Assembly: GCA_900169235.1 (NCBI GenBank)
Contig: FWCC01000242.1
Location: 1-64,000 of the forward strand
Direction: 5' to 3'
Length of the DNA: 64,000 bases
Origin: Zarea fungicola
Lineage: Eukaryota > Ascomycota > Sordariomycetes > Hypocreales > Cordycipitaceae
The notes under the pieces are model-generated. The model saw only the letters and a program-made list of their open reading frames with translations. It did no database searches and was not told the origin of the DNA. Below are positions 17,781 through 61,326 of the stretch, in pieces (positions within the stretch are counted from its first letter, which is position 1; each line of letters starts with the position of its first letter). Position numbers and translations under genes: made by a program.

Positions 17781-20700
17781 ATGTCGCAGTCTGCATCTGG
17801 AGTCAGCCGTGAGCGGCTGGATGCAGACGTAGACGCCAATTCGGACGCACATCTTTTCTCTCAATACGCATCTTCGCCGCCGTCCAGCCCGACTCGACGT
17901 CCTCCTCCTCCGCCTCGCATCGATAGTCCAAACGACAACTCTGCTACAGGCTCGACGCATCACCGTCGTCCCGACCATACTCTTGCAGACTTGTCCCAGC
18001 CTCTCCAGGATGCCAGCTCTGTAGGACGTCGCTTGCCACAAAACATTAAACCGTTGCTTCCCGTACCGGCGATTGCTGGTCCCGGGCCTAGGTTAGTATA
18101 TACTTGCTCGACACATCCCCGACCTTCTCTGTCGATGCACCTCTGGGGCTAGTCGTAGCCTAAAAGTCGCTGCGTTCTATTTTTGCTCTTTGCCTGGCTG
18201 CTTCACCACTCTGCATCCCGTCAGTTGTTCAAGTCAGTTCTCGCACGCTCTGACGTTACTCCTCCACTTCCCTTTTCGTCGCTGCAGTGCAGCCGTTGTG
18301 GTCCCTGTTGTTGCACAACAATCTAGCCGTCTGATACACACCATTTAGCCTAGTAAGGCACTGACGCTTTGTTTACTTGTTTAGGTCACCGCGGCCGACT
18401 GCTCCTAGTCCTCTTTCCACGAGCTATCAACAAGAAACTGGATCATCCGAACAGAGACACGACCGCAAAGAAGGCGCTTCCTCCTCTAGACCTGGCCACT
18501 ACAACCAGCCTATCGCGCACACAACCTTTTATTCGGACTCATCGACCGCTTCGAGTCCCGCGGAGGAGATTGCAAGGTGCGTTTATATATACTTACTTGA
18601 CCATGGCATGGTTGCTAACTGCAGCTATATCATATAGCCTCGATTTTCCAAATGTTGCAAAAGACAGCCGTAGTGTCTCTGAGCCTCTGACGTCAAAACA
18701 ACCTACCAAGGCCGTAGGGCCGTCCAATATAGCCATGGAGGGTCCAATGGTAGCTGCACCTGCCGGTGCAATTAAGCCAGTACCCAGAAACTCGTCTCTT
18801 GATACCGCCATCTCTGCCCTCTCTAGCCGGGACTCAAGCGTTAGCCTGTCCTCCGGCTCATCAGCGCAGTCCGCTGATATTGCTCACTTGATCAAGACAG
18901 CTGGAAGCCCTGAAGCTGTCATCAAATACCTGTTGAAAGAGAAGCAGTCACAGTCGCAGCAGAATGCTCAATTATGGCGACTTGTCGACAAGCAACGAGC
19001 AATGATCCTGGGCCTCAACAAAGATCTTGAAGCCACCCTCAAGGACAAAGATCGTTATAGGAAAAAGCTCAAGGAGCTGGTTGCAAATCCTTCAGTCCTT
19101 CGGGCTACCACCGGTCGGCCGCCGGAAGGCGGCACCAGAGAATCTCGTCCCCCCCCCCGAGTCGAGGTTGACGCTCATCGTGCTGCTGTTCTTCCAGACT
19201 CTCCTGTGCTCGAGTCGGACAGCCCAAAAGCTTCTCCCGTGGATCTCACAATGGCACCTTATCCCATAACGCCGCCTGCCGACCATCCACAATTGCCAGC
19301 GTCTAGTGGTGTCGCCGAGGTTCTTGACCCCACTCGTTTTATGCCTAGACACCAAGAGCATGCCGTCAACAATTATGATCACGAGGCCGAAGAGAGGGCT
19401 GAGGAGCAAGCTCGCAACCATAACGCTAAAGATGCATTGCCAGAGATTCTCTATAATGGATCTCTACCACCGTCCAGAAGCTTGCCAAGCGAACCCCCAA
19501 AGGTGCCTCCACCAAGGCTCCCACCGCCTCAGGAGTCTGCTCCTCAGAAGGGTGAGCCTGTTACTAATTCAACAACCTCAATGCGAAAAGGACCGCCTGC
19601 ACCACTACATCTACCCAATAGCCGTCGGCAATCATCACCGCCTGCTGGTAGAGAAGATTCCGATTCTGAGTCTGAATATGACAATATTCTCAACGTAAAG
19701 AAAGGTGGCCAGTCCGATCGTGGCCGACGCCGCGTACGAGACGGCGAGATGAAAGAAACTGACGGAGCCGGAAATTCGAAGCAAAACACCGTCCCAGAGG
19801 CTGATCACCCCTCAGCGCCAATGCCTGAAATTGACGAGCCTGTACAAACTGAAGGTACCCACCAAGGCAGAGGTCCTGAAGCTGCTACTGCCTCACTCGC
19901 TGCTGTTCTGAACAACGACCGGGTCACTGCTTTGGCGCCTTCCATAATGAGTCCCGGCCTACCTCTGAGCCCACGACCACTAAAAGGACGTGGCCTTTCG
20001 CCACCCGGGTCCCCGCGAATTCAAATGCCGCTCTCACCAAGACCTCCTCGCCAACCTATTCCGCTTCCACCCAATGCTTCTCTTGCCGTATCCTCAGTGG
20101 CAGCTTCCATAGAGTCACGACAGGCTACTCAAGACGCCCCGCTCAACATCCCAAAAATTCAAACAGACAGTACCGAGCGGCAATCAGCTACTGATGAAGA
20201 ATCAAGCCCAACAGAGCGCACGGAAATCTACAAGGGTCTGGCTACAGAAGAATTCCCAGACCTGCTACTACCACCAAACGCGCTTCCATCCATTGATATT
20301 AGGGTCGCTTCATCTCGAATGAGACCTTCGAGAGCCAGCTTGCTGTCTCTCAACCAGCTGGAGGAGGACCCCGTCTTCACTTTAGCCGTCATTTCCAGAG
20401 CCGACCGGGGGGAGCTTTGGCGTGTGGAAAAAGACATTTCCTCTCTATCAAAACTGGATGTACGTATGAAGCAATGTCAAACATTCACGGCCAAGACACC
20501 CGAAAAGTCTCTCTTTAGTGGTCACTCACCCGCAAAACTCGATGCTCGCCGCCAGGCTCTCGAGACCTACTTGGATGAATTGCTCAACACACAACTGGAT
20601 GACACCACTGCGGTTGAGTTGTGTAAATATCTCTCCACAAACGCTGTTCCTCCAAACGCCGATGAGAGTAGCAGCGTTGCCAAGTTAGTACCGGATCAGG

Positions 20701-22694
20701 CGCCGAATGTCGGCCCAGAAGGACGACCAATCCGAAGCGGTTATCTTACAAAGAAGGGAAAGAACTTTGGAGGCTGGAAAGTCAGGTTCTTTGTTCTTGA
20801 TGGACCTAGTCTGAAATACTACGAGACCCCTGGTGGTCCACACCTGGGAACCATCAAGTTAAAGGGTGCTCAGATTGGCAAGCAAGCACAAAGCGGCGAA
20901 AACCAGTCACCGGCCCCGACCAGTACTGGAGAAGAATTTGACAACCAGTATAGACATGCGTTTTTGATTCTGGAGCCCAAGAAGAAGGATTCCACCAGCC
21001 ATGTGAAACATGTCTTGTGCGCCGAGGATGACAGAGAGCGCGATCTTTGGGTAGATGCTCTGCTTCAGTGGATTGCTCCCCTTGATGGGCAGCCGCCCAA
21101 ATCTGTGGCCCATGACCGTCAACATCCAGAATCAGCAAATTCGTCCAAGAGTAAGAAGCCGACTCAGATGCGAACCTCATCTAACCAGGTAGGAGAAGAC
21201 CCACTGATTGGCGTTCGCTATGACTCGACAAATGCTGGAGATGCACCGCAGCAGGGTACCTCTAGTCACTCGCGACCGAAAACAGGACTGGGACTCTCCG
21301 AGCAGCCCAGCTTGCAAAATCTCGGAATTGATGCACCCGCCATCTCTGGGCCAATTGGTCCACCAAAGATCATCTCCGGCCCGAAGGATCTACATCTGAT
21401 TTCAGATGCATCATCGTGGGGTAACCGGCTTGGACCCCCGCAGCCGTCTGCAGAGGATAAGAAGCAGCGGAAACGAAGCTTCTTTGGGTTCGGACCAAAG
21501 ACCAGATCGTCATCAGATGGACAAGAGTCTTTGGCCGGCAGCGAGAGCGGTTCAGCCGTGACATCGCAGAGCCAGGCCCATCACGTTGGCCAAGTATTTG
21601 GGGCTTCCCTGGCCGAAGCAGTGCAATATCACCGTCCCAGGGACGTTGACGTGCCGCTGCCTTCTGTTGTGTACCGCTGCATTCAGTATCTGGAGGCAAA
21701 CAATGCACTGAACGAAGAAGGCATTTTCCGCCTCAGCGGCTCCAACATCGTGATTAAGCAGATCCGAGAACGTTTCAACCATGAGTCTGACATTAACCTC
21801 ATCAGCGATGAGCACTACTATGATATTCATGCTGTAGCGTCATTGCTGAAGCTATACCTGAGAGAGTTACCATCGACAATCTTGACGCGAGATTTACACC
21901 TCGACTTCCTAAACACAACGGAGATTCCGGACCGGGATGAGAAGGTTGCGGCAATGGCGCAGCTTGCTGAGAGGCTTCCAGAGGCGAACCTGACGCTGCT
22001 CAAATATCTCATTTCATTCCTCATCAGAATTATCAACAATTCTGATGTAAACAAGATGACTGTGCGAAATGTTGGGATTGTCTTCTCGCCCACGCTGAAT
22101 ATCCCGGCGCCAGTCTTTGCTACCTTCCTACTGAATTTCGAGGGCGTTTTTGGCATAGACGCCGAGGAATATGAGCTTCCTACGCCATCGACAATACGGT
22201 CTGAACAGCGTGCTGATTCCGAAAGTGTCTTACGCTCCGAGGGACCTCCACGTTATGAGGCGCCGCCCCGACCATCTACATCCTCTGGGAGTGCATCTCC
22301 CCACAGGCAACCGAGAATGGATGCAGTGAGGGTGCCATCAAGATCGACCCCTACCCCGCCGCTCGGGTCTAGCAGACTGCCCACGCGAGAGTCACCGACA
22401 CCGTCCTTTACCACATCCCACCGGCCAGCGTATGAGCCAGCTCATCTCGCCCAACAAGGCAGTGGAGGTACTGGAGCACCGCATCGGCCTGGATACGAAG
22501 CAAACCACGGCTTTGAGCAAGGAGGTGCTGCAGCGGGTACTCGACCCCCGGCAGCATATGAGAGAGCCCTCTATCAGCTCTCGAATGGTTCTGGGAGTAA
22601 CTTGATTCCTAATGAGCAGCGAGGAAACAGGAGACGAGAGAGTTCTATCTATATGAACGGTGGCACCAGCGGCGGTGGCCGGGTTCCATACTAG
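17781..22694 (+). CDS. BEM3: Bem3-type Rho GTPase-activating protein (PX-PH-RhoGAP)
   Basis: Predicted 1519 residues in three exons (17781-18091, 18385-18576, 18638-22694). Domains in order: a Ser/Pro-rich N terminus, a coiled coil (about 257-317), a long disordered Pro-rich region, a PX phosphoinositide-binding domain (about 695-828), a PH domain (about 861-985; opens S-G-Y-L-T-K-K-G-K-N-F-G-G-W), and a RhoGAP domain (about 1153-1338) with the arginine-finger segment E-E-G-I-F-R-L-S-G-S. This order is that of yeast Bem3, which switches off Cdc42 at sites of polarised growth. The C-terminal 180 residues are disordered. The 293-nt first intron is unusually long for this window. Isolated from its neighbours; it probably has its own CT-rich promoter. 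Confidence 0.93.
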
Positions 22695-53450: not shown

Positions 53451-55059
53451 ATGGCTGGCATTTCTGGTCCTGTCTACGGCCTCGAGGTCCCTCCCGGCGA
53501 GATCTTGATCCCTGCCTCCATGGAGTTCCCTGCATCTGTAAGTTTATTGCTATATTTGTATTATTATTAGCTTCTAGCGACGCACTACCAATGCGCGAAT
53601 CGACCCTTTGTGGTGCTCAAAACCGATAGAGTGTTCGCACTGCTCACCACGAACGCAAAGGCTGACTTTTATACAATCCAGTTCCGCATCACTATGGCTG
53701 CCATCGACCCTAGTGCGGAGCCCGAGGCTGGTGAGGACGGCAAAGTCCCCAAGGTCTGCCGCTCGACCGTCCGCCTCGTCAAGCGTGCCTTTTCTGGCAT
53801 TGACGAGGACGAGGACGACGAGATTGATGATGAGTACATGAAGGCTCTCCTCGCTGCCTCTGACGAGGACGACGAGGACGATGAGGACGATGAGGAGGAG
53901 GCCAACGGCGGCCCTAGCGACCCTGCCAAGTCCAAGAAGTCGAAACAGGCCGCTGCCATTAAGAAGCTCCTCGCCGCCACCCAGGGTGACGACGATGAGG
54001 ATATGGAGGATGCCCCCAAGGGCAAGGGCAAGGGCAAGGCTGCTGAGGAGGATGACGAGGATGACGAGGATGACGAGGATGACGAGGACGACGAGGACGA
54101 CGAGGACTCTGATGATGACGGTGCTGACCTCGAGAACTTTGTTGTCTGCACTCTCGACACTGAGAGGGTGAGCAGATCCGGCATCCACTCACCTTTACTT
54201 ATCGGCTAGCTAACATACCGCACAGAACTACCAGCAGCCCCTTGACATCACTGTCAACGAGGGGGAGAAGGTTTTCTTCGTCGTCTCTGGTACCCACACT
54301 GTTTACCTGACGGGCAACTACATCATGGACGACGAGGATGACTACTCCGAGGATGATGATGATGAGGACGACTACGACCTGTCCCCTGATGAGCTCGACT
54401 ATGCCATGGGTGAGGACAGCGACGAGGGCAGCGACGACCTCGATGATGTCGAGGACCCCCGCATCACCGAGATTGACGACGACGAGGAAGAGGCTCCTAA
54501 GCTGGTTGACACTTCCAAGAAGGGCAAGAAGCGCGCTGCCGAGGAGGCCGAGAACCTCGACGACCTGATTGCCAAGGATGGTGCCAAAGCCTCTAAGAAG
54601 CAGCAGAAGAAGCTCAAGAACAACCAGGGCGAAGCTGTTGCTGCTGACGAGAAGAAGGACGCCAAGAAGGTCCAGTTCGCCAAGAACCTCGAACAGGGTC
54701 CTACTGGCTCCACCAAGGCTGCTGTTGGCGTCAAGGTTGTCCAGGGAGTAACTCTTGACGATCGCAAGATTGGTAGTGGTCGTGTTGTCAAGAATGGCGA
54801 CAGCGTTGGTGTCCGTTACATTGGAAAGCTCGCCAACGGCAAGCAGTTTGACGCCAACAAGAAGGGCAAGCCCTTTACCTTCAAAGTCGGCAAGGGCCAG
54901 GTCATCAAGGGCTGGGATGTCGGTATTGTCGGCATGTCTATTGGCGGCGAGCGTCGTCTGACCATCCCCGCCAACCTGGCCTACGGCTCAAAGGCGCTGC
55001 CTGGCATCCCTGCCAACAGCCAGCTGACCTTCGACGTCAAACTCATTGAGATCAAGTAA
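53451..55059 (+). CDS. FPR4: Nucleolar FKBP-type peptidyl-prolyl isomerase (Fpr3/Fpr4)
   Basis: Predicted 468 residues, three exons (53451-53537, 53682-54167, 54226-55059). The N-terminal nucleoplasmin-like fold (starts [17 protein letters not shown]) is interrupted by two long Asp/Glu tracts, which bind histones. A Lys-rich stretch (about 280-340) provides nuclear/nucleolar targeting. The C-terminal FKBP domain (about 365-468) has the conserved [23 protein letters not shown] and [12 protein letters not shown] segments, including the active-site Trp and Tyr. Fpr3/Fpr4 are histone chaperones and proline isomerases acting in rDNA silencing. The acidic tracts are written in near-perfect GAGGATGAC-type repeats at about 54039-54117 and could vary in length. 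Intron 1 (144 nt) is longer than most in the window. Confidence 0.94.
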
Positions 55060-55739: not shown

Positions 55740-58341
55740 ATGGAAGCTACTAATCCAATGTCTTCGATCCCGGCGAGCTATAGCCCGGTCCCCGTTGACT
55801 CGGAGATACTCAAGCTACGCCGTGCTAGCTCCAAGGTATGGTCCGATCTACGAGGGGCGATCAGGGCAATTAGGAAAAGTAAGACAGAATTCTTGTTGAC
55901 AGCATCCACTCAATGATATTAATTAGAGCAGCAGGTTCTCAGAGTTCAAACACCTTTGAATATCGAGTCGAAGACGCTCGAACAGCGTGGGCAGCCGGCG
56001 ACCACGGAATCCAGGATTCGGCCATGTCAGGAAAGGAGAGGGCAATGACACCAAGTGAGCTGGTAAAGCGGCTGCGGTTGGACACATTTGGTCTCACGCC
56101 TAGCACAACAGTCATTCTTCGAAGTGCACCGCTACGAAATAGACGCCAACGAAGCTCCGTGCAGGTCTTAAACAGCATGTCTGGGCGAATCGCGACCGAC
56201 GATGACAAAGCGGAAATCTCGCACCAGCCCGTCGATACACCTCTAAGCGATGCACCTACTTCCTATAGGGCATCGGTAGAGTCTCTTATCTCCAGTACAT
56301 CAAGCAAAGAAGGGGCCAAAAAACGCAGCAGTCACCACCGATTTCTTCGTGCCAAGTCAAATCCAGAAACTCTAAGCACAATCAAGGAATCAGCTCAGGA
56401 TACTTTCACTCCCACAATTGTGACGACCGAGAAAGCGGCAGCTGTCAAAATTAGCTTGGAAACATATTACAACGAGCTTACCCAGGTACCCAATCCTCGT
56501 GCCAGCCGAAAGCACTATTTGGACTCCCATCTCTACTATAATCCACAGTTGTCGCCTGAACAAAAGAACGCCTTTTTGTACACGTTTTATCACCAGGAAT
56601 CGTGCTACCTGCGCCAGTGCCGCGCTCTTAAATCTCAAAGCTAGATGCGACGGCAAAGGAAGAGCACTGGCCATGCGTGGCAAAGTTTTGAGCCGCTCCA
56701 GGTCCTTGGCAAAGGCAGTTTTGGTGTCGTACGGCTTGCTCGCGAAAAAAGAACGCCGTGCTACCCTTTACCAAAGCAAGTTTTTGCTATGAAGATTATT
56801 CGCAAGTCTGAGATGCTTTCCAGCAGCCAGGAAGGCCATTTGTGGGCAGAGCGTGATTTCCTCGTCGCTGCAGAAGGCTCAAATTGGTAAGAAACACGAT
56901 CGCAGGCCCTGAAGGATGCTGACACATTGGCATAGGATTGTCCCACTGGTGACGAGCTTCCAGGATTTCACCAATCTTTACCTTGTTATGGAGTACATGC
57001 CGGGTGGAGATTTTCTTGGTTTGCTTATGCGGGAGAATGTCTTGCATGAAGCTGTGGCGCGCTTTTATATCGCTGAAATGATTTTAGCAGTTGAAGAAAC
57101 TCACCGACTTAAGTTTATTCACCGAGATATCAAGCCAGACAATTTTCTCATTTCGGCCTCAGGTCACCTCAAAATCTCAGACTTCGGTCTCGCATTTGAT
57201 GGGCACTGGTCTCATGATGCGGCGTACTTTAGCTGGCACCGGCATTCTCTTTTTCAGCATTTTCGTTTTATGGCTGTTGGCGACGAAAGGGACGAAGAAG
57301 CGTCCTCTGGGAGGAATCCCCTGAAAAGGGGGAGGACAAACGATCGAAACAAAGGCTTCCACCGCTCACATATGGATTTGAATCAAGTTGATCCTAGAAG
57401 TAGGGGCGCATGTCGTGCTACCGCGTACTCTGTCGTTGGAACAAGTCAGTACATGGCCCCAGAGGTGATTGCTGCTAAAGGCTACGACGGCAGATGCGAC
57501 TAGTGGAGTATTGGCATCATCCTGTTTGAGTGCATCTACGGGTTTACACCCTTTGGGGCGGGTAAGGGAAGAAAGGAAACAAAGCAGAATATCTCCGTGA
57601 GTTCGGCTCTCATGAGGGTAGAATTGAGGCTAATTAAAATGACAGAGGCATAAAGAGATGTTCTGTTTCCCTTCAAGACCAATTGTGAGTGAAAGGTGCA
57701 AAGACTTGCTGTTTTGGTTGATTCACGAAAAGGAGAGTCGAATATGCTCGAAGCGGTATCAGCATAAAGATAGGTGTCCTCCGGGACCCAATCGAATGAC
57801 GGATCTCTTTGGAAGACATGTGTTTCCAGACGATGCCGAAGATATTAAGGCTCACCGGTGGTTCAAACACCTGGTGTGGGACCACGTGGCCAGCATGACT
57901 CCGCCATTTATACCGAACATTTCGAGTCCTGAAGACACGCAATACTTTGAGGAATCGGAGCCACTAGAAGATTGGTCCGAGTCAAGTCCGGGTGCTGGTC
58001 TAAGCCCAGACGAGGTTCAAAACATACTTCGAGACTTTAACGAACATGTTCAGCAGGTGGCCATTGGGTTGGTAGCGGAACCACATGATTCATCGAGCCT
58101 TCGTGTAATTGAAGCTGAGCTGGACAGTTCACCAGATTTGACAGAACGAGAAAGGGACATGCTCAAGCACTTTGTTAGGCTATACGGGCGGCGACAGCGG
58201 AAGCGGCCACGAGACGTTTTGCTGCGAGATGCCAAATTCAAGGACGCTGTAATGGAAGTGCGAAAATCAACGGCGTTTGTAGGATACTCCTGGAGACGAA
58301 TGCCCCCGTCGGGATACATGATGCCGCATTTGCACCAATGA
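55740..58341 (+). CDS. PUK1: NDR-type AGC protein kinase with two in-frame UAG codons (PUK1/stk-21-like)
   Basis: Four exons (55740-55878, 55935-56886, 56936-57596, 57646-58341) keep one frame over 816 codons. Codons 283 (56642-56644) and 553 (57501-57503) are TAG. Everything else is intact: an NDR-like N-terminal helical region (about 235-280), glycine loop L-G-K-G-S-F-G-V-V, the A-M-K lysine, H-R-D-I-K-P-D-N at 426, D-F-G-L-A at 446, a long insert before M-A-P-E at 538, and an AGC-like tail to 815. TAG 553 falls at the first Trp of D-W-W-S-x-G. In Fusarium graminearum PUK1, UAG codons in this kinase region are edited to UGG by A-to-I editing in perithecia, and Neurospora stk-21 is its counterpart. 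I infer the same here. Unedited message would yield a 282-residue fragment without a kinase domain. A pseudogene is the alternative. Tandem with FKBP, convergent with ISC1. Confidence 0.8.
56642..56644 (+). other. In-frame UAG, codon 283 of the kinase; candidate A-to-I recoding site
   Basis: Sits between the NDR-like N-terminal region (ending A-L-K-S-Q-S) and the first kinase strand (M-R-R-Q-R-K-S). Editing of the A at 56643 would give UGG (Trp). The codon lies in the loop of a possible hairpin with a 6-bp stem (56624-56629 with 56660-56665). Confidence 0.6.
57501..57503 (+). other. In-frame UAG, codon 553 of the kinase; candidate A-to-I recoding site
   Basis: Occupies the first Trp of kinase subdomain IX, in the context R-C-D-(stop)-W-S-I-G-I-I-L-F-E. 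Editing of the A at 57502 would restore D-W-W-S-I-G. The codon lies in the loop of a possible hairpin with a 5-bp stem (57493-57497 with 57514-57518). Confidence 0.75.
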
Positions 58342-59739: not shown

Positions 59740-61326
59740 TTAATTTAAAAAAGAGGCAGTCTTGGTTTGGGGAAGGAGTGACTTTGCATTTCGAATATCC
59801 CATTCAAACTCACTGAGAGCCTTGAACTCACTTTGGAAAAAGAGGAGAGCGATTAAGCCATCGACTACGCCGCTCGCGAGGCCAAGACTGGCGAGAAGCA
59901 TGAGGAGAAAGGAGACGTAGCTGTGTGGGCTAAACCAGATTGCGACGAGACAAGCAATCCAGATGAGGATGGCGAGGTAAAAATGACACGCGCGCCAGGA
60001 CTGCTGCCTCTTTTCACCGGCGGTGAATTCCGCAATCATGGCGAGGATTTCGCCGTAGAGCTGTTCTGAGGGTTGGTGATTGTCGAGGTCCATCCGCGGT
60101 TCCTCCAGTGTTGATGTTGTCGATGTGCGGGCCGTGCTGTGGTCATGATTGTCCGTTCGGCGACGGAGCGTGGCTTGCACGGCAAAATGGTCAGAGAGTG
60201 AGCAAAGGAGCTCGGGATGGCGCTGTGTCATGGCGACTGACGCCGAGGCGACATGCCATGTAGTGTCCGAAGCTGCCGCGTGTGACGAGGCAAAGATGTA
60301 GTCGAGTCGTTTGCCGTCAGGGTCTGGTGTAGCCGGGTCCACGGGGCAGGTCTCTCCCTTGGCGAGACGCGCCTTCTTGTCTTTCGGCCAGTGCCATGTG
60401 TTGTACGGCCCGTCACTTGTGACGCCATTGACGTTGACGTTGTGTTCTGCTGTAGGCAAGGAAAGTGGTGAGGTTGCGGCGGCTGCGTCTGGGCTGTTGG
60501 GAAGGAGGAGTTTGGACGGGCCGAGAGAGCTGTGTGGATGCATTACGCGCCATACATCCCTTACTGGAGAGTGAGAGGTAATGAGACGATGAGCAAAGGA
60601 TAAGGGGAGCATGTTGAAGTCGCCCATGGCAAGTACAAGGTGGCCGCGCTGGGAAGCGGCGCGGAGCAGCTTGGCGAGGAGCCAGGCCTGTGCTGTGCGG
60701 TGGGCAGTGTATTGACTGTGAGGTTTTGTACCGTAAGGGGCATGGGTCTTTTTCATATTAGCAATTGCTTTAGTTTTCTTTCAAAAAAAAAACATGATGG
60801 TCATGATTAAAGTCAATATATATGCATATATTAGCAGCTTACTTACATGGGTGTTAAAGACTTCTACGACATCCCATTTCCCTGGGCCGAATTGAATCAC
60901 CGCCGAAGCAATTCCTTTACCTGCATACCAATCACCTCGAAAAAATGCAGAAGGTCGACCGTTGAGTGGGTAACTCCTCATATCAGACTCGATGATGGGC
61001 CATTTGGAGAGGATTGCGAGCCCAGCGCCAAGAAGGCCGTTGGCGTAGAACTTGCCATGGGGGAGGATGTGGTGAGTGGCACTTCGGATGGCCTCATAGT
61101 CTTCCCGGACCCAGCACTCTTGGAGGCAGACAATGTGGGGGGTTGGGCTGGCAGATGGAGAGGTTAAGGTGGTGGACTTGGCGGTACTGGCGATTTGTCG
61201 CCCAATTTCAGCGAGACGCTGGGTGCGAAGGGCGGAGAGGTGGAGGAGACCCCAGCAGTTTAAGGTGAGGAGGTTGATTTCCGATGGGAGATGAGACTGC
61301 TGGTTTCGGGGTGGGCCGTTGCCCAT
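59740..61326 (-). CDS. ISC1: Inositol phosphosphingolipid phospholipase C (Isc1/neutral sphingomyelinase family)
   Basis: Predicted 495 residues, two exons (60847-61326, 59740-60747). The N-terminal endonuclease/exonuclease/phosphatase fold has the Mg-binding and catalytic elements L-L-T-L-N-C-W-G, C-L-Q-E-C-W, G-D-F-N-M-L, K-R-L-D-Y-I-F and L-S-D-H-F-A. A P-loop-like segment, G-D-W-Y-A-G-K-G, matches the Isc1 signature, and the intron falls just after N-T-H of the conserved N-T-H-x-H-A-P-Y-G motif. Two C-terminal membrane segments (about residues 405-470) match the topology of yeast Isc1, which releases ceramide from complex sphingolipids at ER and mitochondrial membranes. The ATG at 61326 is chosen over the upstream in-frame codons, which lack an ATG. 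Faces the kinase gene tail to tail. Confidence 0.93.

Follow-up and report, generated by a model that had tools for sequence, protein, structure and literature searches.

A premature UAG at the subdomain IX tryptophan of a PUK1/stk-21-type kinase gene in the Cordycipitaceae, a probable site of stop correction by mRNA editing

The stretch of DNA analysed here, 64,000 nucleotides in length and referred to as the window, is part of contig C338 of a genome (G000; 43.1 Mb, 456 contigs) which was also searched as a whole. On its + strand it features a protein kinase gene of four exons, starting with the ATG at 55740, from which relatives are similar from the first residues onward. The first exon (55740-55878) is followed by a second (55935-56886) that encodes the N-terminal region, an NDR-type N-terminal regulatory segment recognized by alignment with CBK1, and the start of the kinase domain. 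The third exon (56936-57596) covers the HRD, DFG and APE motifs as well as subdomain IX, and the fourth (57646-58341) the remaining kinase domain and the C-terminal tail up to the TGA at 58339-58341. The three introns (56, 49 and 49 nt) all feature GT..AG borders, and the resulting model comprises 815 codons before the TGA. Two in-frame UAG codons, at positions 283 and 553, interrupt these 815 codons, which are free of any other stop or frameshift.

Upstream of the kinase, the window contains a two-exon gene for an FPR4-type FKBP isomerase (53694-55059, + strand), whose product shares 97% identity (421/436) with a protein of Zarea fungicola (P0121), a species of the family Cordycipitaceae. On this basis, the fungus is regarded as close to Z. 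fungicola. This gene also neighbors the kinase in other Hypocreales, as indicated by consecutive locus tags for kinase and FPR4 in several of them, e.g., Cosmosporella (Fc.00g063620/063610), Hirsutella (HIM_02494/02495) and Claviceps africana (E4U42_001974/001975). Moreover, among the matches listed, the kinase models P0022 (Stachybotrys) and P0106 (Fusarium longipes) are fused to the FKBP neighbor. On the other side, an open reading frame with an Exo_endo_phos domain (59740-60756, - strand) is likewise found beside the kinase gene of Lecanicillium saksenae, the model of which (P0003) continues into the antisense of this same neighbor (38/68 identical residues). A scan of the window for lone in-frame stops between long open stretches returned a single pair, at the TGA at 60781; the scan is blind to the stops of the kinase itself because introns shorten the open stretches. 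At this TGA, on the - strand of the downstream neighbor, stretches of 216 and 346 open codons are separated, perhaps by an intron. Farther away, at 18369-22694 (+ strand), lies an open reading frame of 1441 codons that matches RhoGAP, PH and, weakly, PX.

The kinase features a glycine loop, the catalytic lysine and the HRD, DFG and APE motifs, while subdomain IX reads D-X-W-S-I-G, with X being a stop. Its nearest solved structures are STK38/NDR1 (6bxi) and CBK1, and it can be classified as an NDR-type AGC kinase with the activation segment start typical of PUK1, SDFGLAFDGHWSHD. The seven closest kinases among the matches listed are 62-68% identical and stem from Beauveria (three), Lecanicillium saksenae, Cordyceps militaris, Akanthomyces lecanii and Aphanocladium album, all of which we take to belong to the Cordycipitaceae. 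A PUK1 protein of Z. fungicola itself was absent from the best 120 of 1915 and the best 120 of 1789 matches; as a short N-terminal fragment could rank below these, its absence has no bearing on codon 283 of that species. Judged by gene order and activation segment, the gene is the orthologue of Fusarium PUK1 and Neurospora stk-21, both of which were compared by their published description. The kinship assumed in the preliminary description is thus borne out by kinase type, activation segment start and the FPR4 gene order.

The stop at codon 553 occupies 57501-57503 and is directly followed by TGG (57504-57506). The frame around it reads GTSQYMAPEVIAAKGYDGRCD-(TAG)-WSIGIILFECIYG, and the structure 6bxi features CDWWSLG at the same place, so that codon 553 corresponds to the first Trp of the D-W-W-S-x-G motif in kinase subdomain IX. 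Reading the sequence directly and aligning it with 6bxi hence agreed with the earlier claim of an in-frame TAG at this tryptophan with TGG behind it. The A at 57502 equals A1658 of the coding sequence, and its editing would turn the codon into UGG and give Trp, the residue of the relatives.

This arrangement is known from other Sordariomycetes. In Fusarium graminearum, the UAGUAG of PUK1 (FGRRES_01058, UA1831G UA1834G) is described to be edited to UGGUGG in perithecia, whereas F. verticillioides (FVEG_01191) features UGGUAG in the same kinase and motif, edited at the second codon instead of the first as considered here (PMC4817773). The first of the two tandem stops in F. graminearum corresponds to codon 553, while its second Trp codon is UAG there and TGG in the window. 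The closest parallel is offered by N. crassa stk-21 (NCU03242, UA1628G), an orthologous kinase with a stop at the same Trp, the same UAGUGG and a single site in subdomain IX, which is edited at the first codon in perithecia (PMC4817773). Consequently, the combination of UAG and TGG, which had been put forward as a second-Trp variant, was already in print. Still, editing was observed in Neurospora, whereas the gene of the window is known from DNA. Mutants of puk1 were reported to grow and infect plants normally with defects late in sexual reproduction (PMC4817773), and non-editable alleles of puk1 and stk-21 failed to complement (PMC7306014).

The comparison of orthologues at codon 553 was performed with 231 distinct kinases, i.e., the best 120 of 1915 and the best 120 of 1789 scored matches. 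Of these, 198 share the activation segment start of the PUK1 type and were retained. The other 33 were set aside, including 8 within the first 120; at least two of these (P0093, P0096) read Trp-Trp. The relatives are represented by gene models and not by DNA; a model that ends exactly here means that a stop codon is present, unless the contig ends. Among the matches listed, 16 of the 198 PUK1-type proteins terminate exactly at the Asp preceding the first Trp, and five one residue past it, which supports the proposed recurrence of the stop. The eight named fungi among the 16 are Akanthomyces, Aphanocladium, Beauveria, Trichoderma atroviride, Sarocladium, Neoarthrinium, Biscogniauxia and Niveomyces. 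Such clustering of ends at one codon is more than chance. A further 78/198 of the matches listed skip the site or end before it, with 33 of the 78 resuming at subdomain IX; not every one of them counts as evidence for a stop, because 11 lack both GTSQYMAPE and the subdomain IX tail. Three (3/198, among the matches listed) display a C-D-W pattern without the second Trp, one of which, P0106, seems to be matched elsewhere. Within the seven closest homologues among the matches listed, three end at the site (P0008, P0009 and P0011), four skip it (P0001-P0004), and none reads Trp-Trp. Annotation software was described to insert a false intron to dodge the PUK1 stops (PMC4817773). Trp-Trp is encountered in 96 of the 198 among the matches listed, which indicates that the stop is dispensable in general. 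Some Sordariomycetes were described to carry Trp codons in the DNA at the PUK1 site (PMC4817773), and conservation of individual editing sites is often lacking according to a published comparison (PMC5381528). In public gene models, a recurrent stop can thus be recognized from proteins that end at one codon or skip past it.

Constraint persists beyond the stop. Compared with the Beauveria protein P0001, the window kinase is 79% identical over codons 554-815 (207/262) and 90% over codons 554-640 (78/87), besides 85% over codons 284-452 (137/161) and 59% over codons 1-282 (165/279). Private changes were counted at sites with agreement among at least 75% of eight outgroup sequences. Across codons 557-612 and 641-800, the window kinase features 7 against 7 in P0001 and 6 against 11 in P0003, and over codons 641-800 only, 5 against 9 in P0004. 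For the N-terminal segment, the counts of window and sibling were 9:6, 9:2 (P0003), 10:4, 9:3, 8:7 and 9:9 (P0004). No comparison of any segment was significant for acceleration, with the smallest p of 0.065 belonging to the N-terminal segment versus P0003 (9 and 2). A second measure, departures at sites conserved in at least 90% of all homologues, resulted in 7/55 for codons 1-282, 3/116 for codons 284-452 and 1/13 for codons 453-528, and past the stop in 1/21 (codons 557-612) and 2/67 (codons 641-800). The conservation past codon 553 without acceleration argues that this gene is no long-dead pseudogene; a more recent loss of the kinase gene is conceivable.

Such conservation requires some way past the stops, which could in principle also be provided by ribosomal readthrough, a suppressor tRNA or splicing, with neither stop being edited. 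For codon 553, frame-keeping GT..AG introns were obtained exclusively with the donors GTACAT (57449) or GTAGGG (57400), and for codon 283 with GTACAC (56578), using the donor pattern tried. These introns were rejected because they would delete residues which the relatives keep and lack a good donor. In addition, no tRNA gene was found in the 64-kb window, to which this search was confined, and editing at codon 553 has been published for three other species (PMC4817773). An explanation of both stops by any of these routes is therefore regarded as highly improbable.

Altogether, it is very likely that the gene encodes an NDR-type AGC kinase, the orthologue of PUK1/stk-21 in the Cordycipitaceae, and that the UAG at codon 553 serves as a site of premature-stop correction. 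Most likely it is a genuine site, of a kind already known, from one more species. Indirect support is provided by the orthology, the recurrence of a stop at this codon, the constraint downstream of it, the favorable flanking bases at 57502 and an editing apparatus that looks intact, along with a UAG in a RID-like gene of the genome (all three described below). By analogy with the published system, in which the mRNA editing enzyme consists of Tad2-Tad3 together with Ame1 (PMC11087585), the Tad2-Tad3 deaminase and its activator Ame1 would convert the A at 57502 to inosine in sexual tissue. The edited codon 553 would then be read as UGG (Trp), allowing the kinase C-lobe to be made, while transcripts left unedited at 57502 would give a product without C-lobe. 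In this way, a known editing-dependent kinase is extended, by sequence alone, to another fungal family.

The gene is nevertheless not otherwise intact, as had been supposed, due to the second in-frame TAG at 56642-56644 (codon 283; the A at 56643 is A848 of the coding sequence), upstream of the kinase domain. This stop is situated in the linker that joins the regulatory segment to the kinase domain, within a gap of the CBK1 alignment, and precedes the Pfam match of the kinase domain, which starts at residue 299. Since the UAG at codon 283 comes first, editing of 57502 alone yields no full-length protein. The earlier statement that a single A-to-I change restores the consensus holds for the Trp at codon 553, with the full-length frame remaining blocked at codon 283. 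No counterpart of this stop is mentioned for stk-21 or PUK1 in the accessible parts of their published descriptions. The site at codon 553 alone does not account for codon 283, which has to be a second edited site, a bypassed stop, a recent mutation or an error.

In case of editing at both codons, one transcript would need two stop edits, separated by 270 codons. The old edit would restore Trp at codon 553, and the new one would act on codon 283, which derives from a Gln codon and would become a non-ancestral Trp. Gln is found at codon 283 in all seven closest homologues among the matches listed, so that editing would not give the residue of the relatives. This reading is kept as a tentative possibility. 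If true, a premature stop was added to an already editing-dependent transcript, as would be anticipated where editing weakens the selection against additional editable stops.

The same difference between Gln and the Trp that editing would give also speaks for early decay of the gene, with codon 553 ancestrally edited and codon 283 being a real, recent nonsense mutation that disables it in a strain or lineage which is perhaps seldom or never sexual. The sequence context of codon 283 points in this direction as well. According to published preferences for flanking bases (PMC9600606), the A at 57502 features preferred bases at five of six positions (-2, -1, +1, +3 and +4), with U at +2 and none disfavored. 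For the A at 56643, positions -2, -1, +1 and +4 are preferred, whereas +2 and +3 are disfavored, and the A is predicted to reside mostly in a stem. Its hairpin-loop probabilities amount to 0.19, 0.14, 0.09 and 0.11 with flanks of 15, 20, 30 and 50 nt, respectively, compared to 1.0, 0.74, 0.25 and 0.09 at 57502. The predicted hairpin at 57502 thus depends on the folded length and adds little either way. At a flank of 30 nt on each side, as used in the published hairpin analysis, the structure favors neither site, because 57502 (0.25) and 56643 (0.09) face a mean of 0.23 for all 19 UAG triplets of the coding sequence including both sites. Besides, a hairpin loop is a preference of edited adenosines rather than a requirement. 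Decay would further agree with the N-terminal segment departing at 7/55 conserved sites versus 3/116 in codons 284-452. On the other hand, the lack of any further stop or frameshift in 815 codons, of a significantly accelerated segment and of a signature of RIP speaks against decay. The RIP indices of the kinase gene (TpA/ApT 0.67; 1.29) differ little from the values for the window (0.75; 1.27), and RIP was rejected as cause of codon 283 on this basis, with the remark that one lone change could still stem from it. Decay is also opposed by the retention of an Ame1 orthologue, a Tad2-type deaminase gene and an HMG gene resembling MAT1-2 (see below), and it is accordingly judged unlikely, albeit worth serious consideration.

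A further way to account for codon 283 would be its bypass by a shorter transcript starting at the ATG of codon 284, directly after the TAG, where the seven homologues feature V, K or T. The product would contain the whole kinase domain, which begins past codon 283, without the N-terminal regulatory segment, and codon 553 would still be edited. Compared with five of the six siblings, private changes are slightly more numerous in the N-terminal segment of the window kinase, none of these differences being significant. Against a bypass, the regulatory segment is still recognizable, alignable with CBK1 and 59-63% identical to the siblings, and we consider such a transcript rather improbable. Little probability is also assigned to a sequencing or assembly error at codon 283, by which the real gene would carry the stop at codon 553 only. 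The TAG is indeed one base away from a CAG-type Gln codon, inferred for relatives that are known as proteins, but nothing in particular hints at an error. Codon 283 hence poses a testable question, namely whether editing-dependent genes collect further editable stops or whether such a stop is the first step to gene loss.

Regarding the editing apparatus, DUF726 matches occur at three places in the genome. The gene at G000:C327:169939-170979 (+ strand) features MV at -31/-30, Asp at +58 and His at +98 relative to the nucleophile Ser. This corresponds to the residues of F. graminearum Ame1 (MV500-501, S531, D589 and H629), in which MV contacts Tad3 and is essential for mRNA editing (PMC11087585), and judged by this published residue spacing the gene is the Ame1 orthologue. 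CHE1 is described as hard to trace outside Fusarium (PMC11169179), for which reason it was set aside as an additional criterion. Several deaminase matches are present in the genome, without Tad3 being singled out among them. One, on contig C112, is of the Tad2 type with the motifs HAEY and VEPCIMC, and is presumably Tad2 by these motifs. A MAT1-2-like HMG box was detected in two pieces at G000:C204:113576-113831 (+ strand), and we assume by motif that this gene is MAT1-2, looking like MAT1-2-1. The genome search for a MAT alpha box gave no match, and neither did its controls. The literature listings contained neither a mention of sexual reproduction for this fungus nor any title on A-to-I RNA editing in Cordyceps or Cordycipitaceae.

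A second candidate editing site of the genome may be found in a cytosine methylase gene on contig C100 (G000:C100, ~158500-159400, + strand), which we take to be RID, with EQT in place of ENV. It contains one in-frame UAG between DSFCGGGG and PCQ, in the context DKEPEV-UAG-RTYRVNF, flanked by 419 and 339 open codons. Genes of F. graminearum with corrected premature stops include AMD1, FgRID, FgAMA1 and FgBUD14 (PMC11156358), in which, as proposed for codon 553, UAG is changed to UGG to restore the full protein. These are other genes than the kinase, and the UAG of the RID-like gene is likened to that of FgRID by the kind of gene and not by position. A further DNA methylase match, at G000:C316:28208-29434 (- strand), features one TGA inside, which perhaps belongs to an intron.
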